In this document: one piece after another, positions 6,416 through 8,393 of the stretch
Position numbering within the stretch: the first letter of the stretch is position 1
How the letters are laid out: each line of letters begins with the position of its first letter
Origin: an uncultured Bacteroidales bacterium
GTDB taxonomy: Bacteria > Bacteroidota > Bacteroidia > Bacteroidales > UBA932
Assembly (NCBI GenBank): GCA_900316955.1
Contig: ONEX01000019.1
Coordinates: forward strand, 1-64,000
DNA: 64,000 nucleotides
Reading direction: 5' to 3'
Made by a program: the position numbers and the translations under genes
Notes under the pieces: generated by a model
Seen by the model: the letters and a program-made list of their open reading frames with translations, nothing else
What the model was told of the DNA's origin: nothing
The model's database searches: none

Positions 6416-6496
6416 GGGCCAAAGATAATTAAAATAATTGATTATTACCTCATTCCCCCGGAAAGAACGTTACTGTTTTCATTTCATTCCAAACTA

Positions 6497-6528
6497 TTTG
6501 GAATTTTGAAAATATTTTATTTACTTTG
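6497..6528 (+). promoter_or_regulatory. Promoter of the cysteine leader and cysKE operon
   Basis: TTTG (6497-6500) is followed after exactly 20 bases by TTACTTTG (6521-6528), a one-mismatch match to TAnnTTTG. Transcription would start near 6534, about 12 bases before the leader ORF. Confidence 0.7.
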
Positions 6529-6546
6529 CGATAGACATTTGAACCC

Positions 6547-6615
6547 GTGCTTCAGAATCTGAATACGACCTGTTGTTGTACCACCCCCGAAGGATGGTGC
6601 ACGCTATGTTTATAG
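6547..6615 (+). CDS. Poly-cysteine leader peptide (22 codons, GTG start)
   Basis: A short ORF runs from GTG at 6547 to TAG at 6613-6615 and contains the core NTTCCCTTPEGWCTLC. Five of 22 residues are cysteine, three of them consecutive TGT codons at 6571-6579. An in-frame TAG at 6532-6534 closes the frame upstream, so GTG is the only reasonable start. It precedes cysK, which makes cysteine, and overlaps three mutually exclusive hairpins. The inferred role is a ribosome-stalling sensor of charged Cys-tRNA. Confidence 0.8.
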   Translation: MLQNLNTTCCCTTPEGWCTLCL

Positions 6616-6687
6616 GTATATCCTGACAGATTCCCCGCGTGGGAAAGCGTATAGATGCATCATCCTGGAGAGGACGGTGCATTTTTT
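6577..6687 (+). promoter_or_regulatory. Cysteine-responsive transcription attenuator (segments 1-4)
   Basis: Four pairing segments are visible. Segment 1 TGTACCACCC (6577-6586) pairs with segment 2 GGATGGTGCA (6592-6601), with one mismatch. Segment 2 can instead pair over all 10 positions with segment 3 TGCATCATCC (6656-6665), forming an antiterminator. Segment 3 can pair with segment 4 GGACGGTGCA (6672-6681), forming a terminator followed by six T. A ribosome stalled on the Cys triplet would cover segment 1 and free segment 2, allowing cysK transcription. CGCT/AGCG (6602-6605, 6646-6649) and a TTCCC-GGGAA hairpin (6631-6645) strengthen the antiterminator arm. Confidence 0.8.
6655..6687 (+). 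terminator. Attenuator terminator before cysK
   Basis: ATGCATCATCC (6655-6665) pairs with GGACGGTGCAT (6672-6682) with one mismatch around a 6-base loop, followed by a T-run at 6682-6687. It lies 44 bases before the cysK ATG on the coding strand, so full termination here would silence the operon. Confidence 0.85.
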
Positions 6688-6731
6688 ATATCATCAAAGC
6701 ACATGTTTAACTTATATAAAACGAACAAGCC

Positions 6732-7652
6732 ATGATTTACAAATCTCTTACGGACCTCATCGGGAACACTCCCCTCCTGGAGGTCAGCGGATTCGAAGGG
6801 CAGAAAGCCCGCCTCGTCTTGAAAGTCGAAGCCTTCAACCCCGGCGGCTCCGTCAAGGACCGGATCGCCCGGCAGATGATCCAGGATGCCGAAGAGGCCG
6901 GCATCCTGCAGAAAGGCGCCACCATCATCGAACCCACCAGCGGGAACACCGGCGTCGGCCTCGCCTGGGTCGGGACTTCGAAAGGATACAAGGTGATCCT
7001 CACGATGCCGGAGTCGATGAGCCTCGAAAGACGGAACCTCCTGGCGGCCCTCGGAGCGAAGCTCGAACTCACCCCCGCCTCCCAGGGAATGAAAGGCGCA
7101 ATCGCCAAAGCCAATGAGCTGAAGGAGTCCATCCCCGGCTCGGTCATCCTCGGCCAGTTCGTCAATCCCTCCAATCCCCTTGCCCACGAGCGGACGACCG
7201 CCCAGGAGATCTGGCGGGACACCGATGGAGCGGTCGACGTCTTCGTCGGCGGCGTCGGCACCGGCGGAACCGTCAGCGGCACGGGCAGGGCTTTGAAAAA
7301 GCACAAGTCCTCCGTCCAGGTCGTCGCCGTGGAGCCGGCCGGCAGCCCGGTCCTGACCGAGGGCCGGAGCGGAAGCCACAAGATCCAGGGCATCGGGGCC
7401 GGTTTCGTCCCGCAGACGTATGACGCCTCGGTCATCGACAAGGTCATCCCCGTCGCGGACGAAGACGCCGCCGCAGCCTCCCGGCTGCTCGCTTCGAAGG
7501 AAGGACTTCTCGTGGGCATTTCCTCGGGTGCATCTTTCTTCGCCGCCCTTTCGCTCGCCCGCGAGGAAAGCTATGCCGGCAAGATGATCGTCGCGCTTCT
7601 CCCGGATACGGGGGAAAGATACCTGTCCACCGGCCTGTTCAACCGAAATTGA
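6732..7652 (+). CDS. cysK: Cysteine synthase A (O-acetylserine sulfhydrylase)
   Basis: This 306-residue PLP enzyme converts O-acetylserine and sulfide to cysteine. The Schiff-base lysine is in NPGGSVKDR (Lys42), the substrate loop TSGNTG is at 69-74, and the phosphate-binding GTGGT motif is present. The length is standard for CysK. cysE follows after 6 bases, giving a two-gene cysteine operon. The upstream poly-cysteine leader and terminator indicate that expression is released when Cys-tRNA is scarce. No CysB-type regulator gene is nearby. Confidence 0.97.
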   Translation: MIYKSLTDLIGNTPLLEVSGFEGQKARLVLKVEAFNPGGSVKDRIARQMIQDAEEAGILQKGATIIEPTSGNTGVGLAWVGTSKGYKVILTMPESMSLERRNLLAALGAKLELTPASQGMKGAIAKANELKESIPGSVILGQFVNPSNPLAHERTTAQEIWRDTDGAVDVFVGGVGTGGTVSGTGRALKKHKSSVQVVAVEPAGSPVLTEGRSGSHKIQGIGAGFVPQTYDASVIDKVIPVADEDAAAASRLLASKEGLLVGISSGASFFAALSLAREESYAGKMIVALLPDTGERYLSTGLFNRN

Positions 7653-7658
7653 TCAACG

Positions 7659-8393
7659 ATGGATATTCCGGTCAAAACCATGCGGATCACGCTCCGGGCG
7701 ATGATGGAGTCCCTGTTCGACGCTTTCTTCCCGGAGTACAGCCCCAACTCGTACGACTATTCCGTGAATGAAGCGGTGAAGGCTCTTTCCAGCCTCTGCG
7801 GCCAGGAAAAGGCCGATCTGTTCCGGGAAAGGATTCCCGTCCTGGCGGAGCTGCTCGCCCAGGATGTCGAAGCGATCGGCGGCAATGACCCGGCCGCGAG
7901 CGATACCCAGGAAATCGTGTACTGCTACCCGGCCGTCACCGCGATGGTCCATTACCGGGTCGCCCACGAGCTGGACGCCCTCGGCGTCGGGGTCATCCCC
8001 CGGATGCTCACGGAATACGCCCATTCCGCCACAGGCATCGACATCCATCCCCAGGCCCGGATCGGCCATCATTTCGCGATCGACCACGGGACGGGCGTCG
8101 TCATCGGCCAGACCGCCGTCATCGGGAACCACGTGACTCTGTACCAGGGGGTGACCGTGGGCGCAAAGAACTTCAAGTACGATGAGTCGGGGAAGCCGCG
8201 GAACATCCCGCGGCACCCCGTCATCGAAGACAATGTGACCGTCTATAGCAACGCTTCCCTCCTGGGAAGGATCACGATCGGGGAAGGTTCCGTCATCGGG
8301 GGTAACGTGTGGCTCACCCACAGCGTTCCTCCCTATTCAAGGATTCTCCAGGGAAGGAGCCAGGAAGAGTTCCTGGACGGCGCAGGTATTTGA
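7659..8393 (+). CDS. cysE: Serine O-acetyltransferase
   Basis: The 244-residue protein carries an N-terminal helical region and a C-terminal left-handed hexapeptide-repeat domain (GIDIHPQARIGHHFAIDHGT, then GVVIGQTAVIGNHV). His residues in IDHGTG match the catalytic region of SAT enzymes. It acetylates serine with acetyl-CoA to feed CysK. It is translationally close to cysK (6-base gap) and shares its attenuator. The C-terminus ends DGAGI; a C-terminal Ile is the residue that docks in the CysK active site in the known cysteine synthase complex, so complex formation is plausible. Confidence 0.95.
   Translation: MDIPVKTMRITLRAMMESLFDAFFPEYSPNSYDYSVNEAVKALSSLCGQEKADLFRERIPVLAELLAQDVEAIGGNDPAASDTQEIVYCYPAVTAMVHYRVAHELDALGVGVIPRMLTEYAHSATGIDIHPQARIGHHFAIDHGTGVVIGQTAVIGNHVTLYQGVTVGAKNFKYDESGKPRNIPRHPVIEDNVTVYSNASLLGRITIGEGSVIGGNVWLTHSVPPYSRILQGRSQEEFLDGAGI

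Follow-up and report, generated by a model that had tools for sequence, protein, structure and literature searches.

Organization of the cysKE Locus

The DNA analyzed here, called the window below, is a stretch of 64,000 nucleotides from an uncultured Bacteroidales bacterium. On its forward strand, it carries a cysK gene encoding cysteine synthase A (6732..7652; TIGR01139, 428 bits, above the cut-off; PF00291), followed by a second gene of the operon encoding a cysE-like serine O-acetyltransferase (7659..8393; Hexapep), the top NCBIfam match of which is TIGR01172 (cysE), yet with a score of 151.7 bits, which is below the cut-off of 210.65. Upstream of cysK, the gene presumed to be regulated, direct reading of the same strand identified a leader peptide ORF of 22 codons starting with GTG and ending with TAG (VLQNLNTTCCCTTPEGWCTLCL, 6547..6615). 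It includes three adjacent, putatively regulatory Cys codons (TGT TGT TGT, 6571..6579) and two more at 6598-6600 and 6607-6609, amounting to five Cys in 22 residues, exactly as given in the preliminary description of this DNA. In 3000 dinucleotide shuffles of 6481-6731, three adjacent Cys codons within a short ORF arose 3 times, and never together with a terminator behind that ORF (0/3000).

The elements TTTG (6497-6500) and TACTTTG (6522-6528) form a probable promoter of the Bacteroidota type on the forward strand (6497..6528). The second element, which stops 18 nt 5' of the leader GTG, is what we take to be a near form of that promoter type, i.e., TAnnTTTG minus one base. The promoter initially claimed is probable; a scan for sigma-70-type patterns found no site at 6497..6528.

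Between the Cys codons and cysK, the forward strand can form three competing helices. Segment 1 (6577..6586, assigned by folding) is the 5' arm of helix 1:2, in which it faces 6592-6601 and pairs at 9 of the 10 positions; this arm starts inside the last Cys codon (6577), so that the Cys triplet does abut segment 1, as had been proposed. Segment 2 (6591..6601), which lies within the leader ORF, can pair either with segment 1 or with segment 3 (6653..6666). Its pairing with 6656-6666 of segment 3 gives the antiterminator, helix 2:3, which consists of 11 consecutive pairs including one G-U, where 10 perfect pairs had been announced; this was nearly right. Segment 3 can also pair with segment 4 (6671..6684), the 3' arm of an intrinsic terminator, to give helix 3:4 with a single internal mismatch, and the T-run was read at 6682..6687. 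Folding and direct reading bear out the three competing stems and the T-run, and the helices also have the covariation described below in their favor. The cysK gene begins 44 bases past the end of the T-run and 116 nt past the leader stop.

The terminator fold (-16.0 kcal/mol) has a z-score of -4.05, with no equally stable fold in 200 shuffles, and terminators of -14 kcal/mol or better were obtained in 4 of 400 shuffles of 6481-6731. Folded alone, helix 1:2 has a z-score of -1.19 and the stretch containing helix 2:3 one of -2.14, and the folds of the whole leader are modestly below those of the shuffles (z -1.87 for a 131-nt leader and -1.96 for a 201-nt leader). The case for helices 1:2 and 2:3 rests on covariation, not on fold stability. 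The terminator of this element was missed by a terminator pattern scan of the window. No Rfam family matched the window at gathering scores, including the T-box, a model of which is part of the Rfam library, and Bacteroid-trp (RF01692); with E-values up to 10, only six weak matches to snoRNA, lncRNA, and IRES families were obtained.

Distribution of the Leader in the Genus and Family

A CysK search in 61 genomes of the same genus, including that of the window, gave 30 matches in 27 genomes. Apart from L022 and L025, which lack the cysK start and were left out, 28 loci have an intact 5' end, and a leader with a Cys run and a terminator was identified in seven of them, the window's own locus and paralogues being included in this count (L002, L003, L005, L006, L007, L010, and L020). 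The same search in 199 genomes of the family gave 57 matches, from which 28 new loci were read, 27 matches being without a locus; the leader is present in six of these 28 (L032-L037), all belonging to a single genus, g15. The label LEADER assigned automatically to L013, L021, and L054 was rejected, since the Cys codons are off-frame or far upstream and no fitting terminator is present.

A covariance model (R1), blind to the downstream gene, was built from 13 leaders of the genus and of g15; alignment A1 was used, and alignment A2, in which the terminators of L002, L003, and L037 were out of register, was dropped. With E-values up to 0.1, R1 gave 33 matches in 31 of 250 genomes of the genus, many of which are incomplete. 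Thirty of these loci were read (the matches G001:C74, G373, and G012:C52 have no locus) and 28 of them are Cys leaders carrying two to five Cys codons each, while L088 and L089 were rejected as such because the Cys run is absent. Three or more adjacent Cys occur in 22 of the 28 leaders; the others read CCIC, CRCC (twice), CLCC (twice), and CC, the runs being interrupted in L069, L076, L082, L084, and L087 and reduced to just two Cys codons in L083. The search for Cys-rich ORFs and terminators before cysK that had been suggested was successful in the genus and also in g15. The loss of the Cys codons in relatives, which had been named as evidence against attenuation, was not the rule: nearly all the leaders keep them, the cases in the other direction being L083, with two, and L013, with none.

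Of the 28 leaders of the genus, 27 have cysK as the gene that follows, 20 of these 27 not being among the R1 training sequences, and cysE lies behind cysK in 23 of the 25 loci of this set with enough downstream sequence. In the 28th leader (L081; G010:C169:3005-3080:-), segment 3 is kept and is followed by a stretch resembling, by eye, HERTT..EIWRDT of CysK. This looks like a decayed regulated operon, in which cysK was apparently deleted to a short remnant.

When a further model, R2, was applied to 299 genomes of the family, the leader was found in 14 genomes belonging to two genera (six in g1 and eight in g15). The R2 matches in g21 and the second match in G848 are not leaders, and L194-L196 were dropped for want of a Cys run. 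Among 80 named loci, a leader of the g1 type was identified in L105, from the uncultured Bacteroidales bacterium RUG352 (the prefix RUG denotes rumen genomes), and in L106 (Reindeer_2_mag_64).

Two other arrangements were observed upstream of cysK. At L023, the leader ends in five Cys codons and then a stop, without any clear terminator, for which reason this locus was not counted as a complete attenuator; its output is perhaps different. At L013, a terminator with the family's CCTGCCAATC arm is located right behind a promoter-like element and Cys codons are absent, so that this may possibly be a leader that has lost its sensor.

Covariation of the Competing Helices and Position of the Cys Codons

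Thirty-three leaders were aligned by covariance model. Helix 2:3 is outside the structure of the model, while the alignment (A3) was fitted to helices 1:2 and 3:4, and the counts for these two lean towards them. Helix 2:3 is paired in 81.9% of the cells, a value reached in none of 500 shuffles (mean 75.0) and far from the 22-42% of slid versions, and its covariation score is 0.360 vs. 0.252 for shuffled and 0.05-0.11 for slid versions. Two of the five measures used for this helix do not go beyond the shuffles, namely the double-change pairs (reached in 134/500) and the pair types (120/500). The alignment pairs 76-147 and 78-145 of helix 2:3 fail to pair in 24 and 21 leaders out of 33, respectively, and in L074 the aligned helix is hardly formed. 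For helices 1:2 and 3:4 taken jointly, to both of which the alignment is fitted, pairing is found in 89.6% of the cells vs. 79.1 in shuffled and 36-42 in slid versions, the terminator 3:4 being the best conserved of the helices (95.1%).

Parsimony on a CysK tree gave nine pair-preserving double changes in helix 2:3 vs. 3, 1, 2, 4, 1, and 0 in six slid versions, along with 11 double and 22 single changes failing to preserve a pair. The corresponding numbers of pair-preserving double changes are 10 in helix 1:2 and 19 in helix 3:4, slid controls being available for helix 2:3 alone. This tree is rough, as it includes some short CysK pieces (minimum 99 residues) and an arbitrary choice was made wherever states were ambiguous. 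The covariance check proposed for the three stems had a positive outcome, with compensatory changes in all of them: despite the changes of letters, segment 2 remains able to pair with either 1 or 3, and segment 3 with either 2 or 4. The retention of alternative pairings is needed by a switch and not by a plain terminator.

The Cys runs of the 33 aligned leaders are composed of 84 TGT and 19 TGC codons. The distance from the end of the run to the aligned start of segment 2 (6592 in the window) is 12 nt in 19 of the 33 leaders and 11-13 nt in 24 of them; the remaining distances are 5 nt (two leaders, in which a later Cys is counted into the run), 15 nt (two), 17 nt (four), and 21 nt (one). Judging by known footprints, the edge of a ribosome whose A site holds the last Cys codon would lie at about the start of segment 2. 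On the 5' side, 12 of the 33 leaders have an element resembling TAnnTTTG, as defined by a loose pattern, that ends 6-9 nt upstream of the first ATG in frame, which suggests that these leader mRNAs may have very short 5' ends and be nearly leaderless. The ribosomes of Bacteroidota largely do without Shine-Dalgarno pairing.

Proposed Attenuation Mechanism and Alternative Explanations

The locus and its relatives combine an ORF with Cys codons, three covarying and competing helices, a conserved spacing, a terminator, and linkage to cysK(-cysE). Codons for the amino acid of the pathway, competing helices, a 3:4 terminator, and a spacing adapted to a stalled ribosome are all shared with the classical trp, his, and leu attenuators. 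The short ORF carries, side by side, codons for the amino acid that the pathway produces (a Cys run before cysteine synthase), placed in such a way that a stalled ribosome would leave segment 2 free (12 nt in 19/33); the antiterminator shares an arm with the terminator and shows compensatory changes, with the reservation about two of its five measures given above; and the intrinsic terminator lies between the leader ORF and the first gene. We consider that the element is, with a probability of about 0.9, a ribosome-mediated transcription attenuator sensing charged tRNA-Cys. This cysteine attenuator is real, conserved, and very probably working, its response to cysteine being the part that we infer. 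Points against it include the GTG start of the leader in the window, the promoter with one base short, and the presence of the element in only a minority of the genus.

According to this model, transcription would start at the promoter described above and the leader would be translated. When cysteine is ample, the ribosome would clear the Cys codons, cover segment 2, and reach the stop codon ending at 6615; with segment 2 occupied, helix 2:3 would be kept open, helix 3:4 would form, and transcription would stop near 6687, ahead of cysK. When tRNA-Cys is uncharged, the ribosome would halt with its A site on one of the Cys codons at 6571-6579, hiding segment 1, its front edge lying just short of segment 2 (6591/6592). 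The free segment 2 would then pair with segment 3 as it emerges, no terminator would form, and cysK-cysE would be transcribed, i.e., read-through would occur upon cysteine limitation. Without any translation, helices 1:2 and 3:4 would form jointly and the gene would be off.

The poly-Cys ORF might instead govern the translation of cysK by coupling or reinitiation, as in mycobacteria, the hairpin being incidental. Poly-Cys upstream ORFs do exist before cys genes in Actinobacteria (PMC1262725), and the promoter-like element that 12 of the 33 leaders have 6-9 nt ahead of the ATG, with the nearly leaderless mRNAs it may imply, would suit such a mechanism. We nevertheless find it improbable, because the 116 nt from the leader stop to cysK contain a terminator with its T-run, because this terminator is the helix that has been best conserved, and because the partner of the antiterminator is the terminator's own 5' arm, not the start region of cysK. 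A gene for a small functional Cys-rich peptide (binding a metal, for example) with its own terminator, cysK being transcribed independently, would also account for five Cys in 22 residues and for a terminator after the ORF. This explanation is harder still to sustain, since the residues outside the Cys run are variable, partly as the RNA helices dictate, since cysK comes next in 27 of the 28 leaders of the genus, with an apparent cysK remnant in the other one, and since compensatory changes are seen in helix 2:3, for which a plain terminator would have no use. The least credible explanation is a leader RNA binding a ligand or a tRNA (a riboswitch or T-box) with no need for translation: the conserved competing helices speak for it, but no Rfam family matches at gathering scores, the bases conserved most strongly are those of Cys codons, within an open frame in which TGT and TGC interchange, and the leaders of other families presented below share, by eye, the Cys run, the spacing, and the terminator rather than the sequence.

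Comparison with Known Systems

The element uORFC-8-2, located before cysS in Rhodobacterales, has been predicted to be a ribosome-mediated transcription attenuator based on Cys codons (PMC8632094). It resembles the cysteine attenuator proposed here in its adjacent Cys codons, its terminal stem with a U-run, and its signal, charged tRNA-Cys; it differs in that it belongs to Alphaproteobacteria, precedes a tRNA synthetase gene, and has two Cys codons in the first stem. Here the downstream gene is cysK, not cysS, and the nearest named relative is the uncultured Bacteroidales bacterium RUG352, not a member of Rhodobacterales. In Actinobacteria, poly-Cys leader peptides occur before cys operons, no conserved terminator hairpin being reported in Mycobacterium (PMC1262725), and the mycobacterial control is described as translation attenuation (PMC13236596). 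The actinobacterial leaders are likewise short ORFs with a Cys run before cysteine genes, but those of mycobacteria lack a conserved terminator, whereas our case has both an intrinsic terminator and an antiterminator, which covary. The mycobacterial poly-Cys leaders are reportedly the subject of an experimental paper by Canestrari et al. In the trp attenuator, the stop codon lies between segments 1 and 2, whereas here the amino acid is cysteine and segment 2 is part of the ORF, the stop codon coming after it.

Within the phylum, leader-peptide attenuation has been suggested before amino-acid operons of Flavobacterium psychrophilum (PMC9723704), and long 5' UTRs with short ORFs reminiscent of leader peptides have been reported in Bacteroides thetaiotaomicron (PMC7366714); the principle proposed is the same, and the accessible parts of these two papers contain no cysteine case. 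Bacteroid-trp (RF01692), a cis-regulatory RNA candidate of Bacteroidetes (PMC2864571), is associated by its name with tryptophan genes and, as stated above, has no match in the window. No cysteine attenuator in Bacteroidota was found to be described in the open-licence literature searched, including the available text of PMC4833913 and PMC2965389. The initial remark about the lack of a described version acting by transcription attenuation in Bacteroidetes holds for cysteine within this literature. The novelty is smaller than first thought because a cysS attenuator has been predicted in Rhodobacterales (PMC8632094) and leader-peptide attenuation before amino-acid operons has been suggested in Flavobacterium (PMC9723704). 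The mechanism is classical; what is new within the scope of the search is the cysKE instance in Bacteroidales, its covariation, and possibly its repeated origins.

The attenuator provides Bacteroidales with a concrete and testable route for sensing the cysteine supply via the translating ribosome, and some three dozen natural variants are at hand, including two-Cys and interrupted-Cys forms. Since attenuation requires the RNA polymerase and the ribosome to move together, the element could serve in addition to assay the coupling of transcription and translation in this phylum.

A Palindromic Box Upstream of cysK in Sister Genera

In 15 of the 28 family loci obtained by the CysK search in 199 genomes, a conserved palindromic box, TACCAYAAATNTGYTATTT, lies upstream of cysK (L039-L042, L044, L045, L050-L055, and L057-L059). 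It is perhaps the operator of a transcription factor. The box was found in 0 of 49 loci bearing the leader, a number in which some sites are counted repeatedly, and in 0 of 29 loci of the genus, most of which are without the leader too; across the order, it was found in 0 of 60 fetched loci and in 3 of 29 other loci. The leader and the box were thus mutually exclusive in the loci read, which may be explained by the different genera alone. Sister genera carrying the box before cysK instead of the leader are a hint that one gene might be controlled in two modes.

Cysteine Leaders in Other Families and Possible Cases Beyond the Order

An order-wide CysK search in 247 genomes gave 97 matches, and all 96 upstream regions other than that of the window were read (29 loci, two sets of 60 and six fetched regions, and L292). 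A leader with a Cys run and a terminator before cysK was identified in four of the 96, belonging to three further families: L277 in family f62 (...SACCCTTL; best helix of 9 pairs, 13 nt after the Cys run), L283 in f53 (...YCCCSN; 7 pairs, 16 nt), L292, also in f53 (...TCCCSRIKVCCR; 6 pairs, 15 nt; weak), and L296 in f33 (...ICCCCENIKFLHR; 10 pairs, 13 nt). The helices mentioned pair the stretch following the Cys codons with the 5' half of the terminator, and each is the best of many possible ones, with no covariation behind it. By eye, these compact leaders are unlike the g1/g15 type, with which they have in common the Cys run, the spacing, and the terminator, not the sequence. Their distribution among the cysK regions is patchy (1/5 in f62, 2/4 in f53, and 1/2 in f33).

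The leader of G603 was not reported by R2, which, when applied to 393 genomes of the order with E-values up to 0.01, detected no cysteine leader outside the family; 15 weak R2 matches were dropped as plain terminators, leaders of other kinds (one of them riboswitch-like), or products of chance, L101 having a CCC frame with no hairpin visible and L091 a CC frame before a terminator with no cysK identified nearby. From the order set, L204, L210, L243, and L259, with Cys pairs or a CCC far upstream, were also set aside.

The differences between the compact types and the g1/g15 type suggest that they originated separately, although strong divergence from one ancestral leader is also conceivable. 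That cysteine transcription attenuators arose repeatedly in Bacteroidales (in g1/g15 and in f62, f53, and f33) and act on nearly leaderless leader mRNAs is a tentative proposal, to which we give slightly less than even odds. If it is true, transcription and translation would be coupled in these Bacteroidota, and the spacing of 12-16 nt would be a measure of the front edge of the Bacteroidota ribosome.

Outside the order, no leader followed by a terminator was found in the 46 upstream regions read (26 + 20), which are part of the matches of a looser search in the class, many of these matches having the size of cystathionine beta-synthase; L331 has a CCC frame without a terminator. In MAGs of Clostridiales and Clostridia (L139 and L141), short Cys-rich ORFs before cysK are followed by terminators (MNNASILCCCMWACTDMNTPLWYTSSGGQC and MKRLFTVNCCSCGSCCCYCKGLVCCGQESVSV). 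These are possible cysteine leaders of Firmicutes, about one plain CCC being expected by chance per 80 loci according to a rough estimate.

Leaders for other amino acids were also encountered in the order. In two other families, His-run leaders with terminators were observed at L090 (G661:C31:12800-12895:-; MIFQLHTIRHHHYLLLKVGG) and L095 (G727:C1:2648988-2649122:+; MLFLSLHHHHLHIPYGGVR), and the genes directly behind them, judging from their translated starts, are presumably hisG-like. A Phe-rich leader with a terminator (MKNFSYTYFFFFYFYFKR) occurs at L093 (G742:C4:266627-266752:+), before a gene that we take to be pheA-like. At L096 (G743:C114:1302-1403:+), the terminator lies behind an apparent riboswitch of the SAM type, the downstream gene being presumably metH-like.
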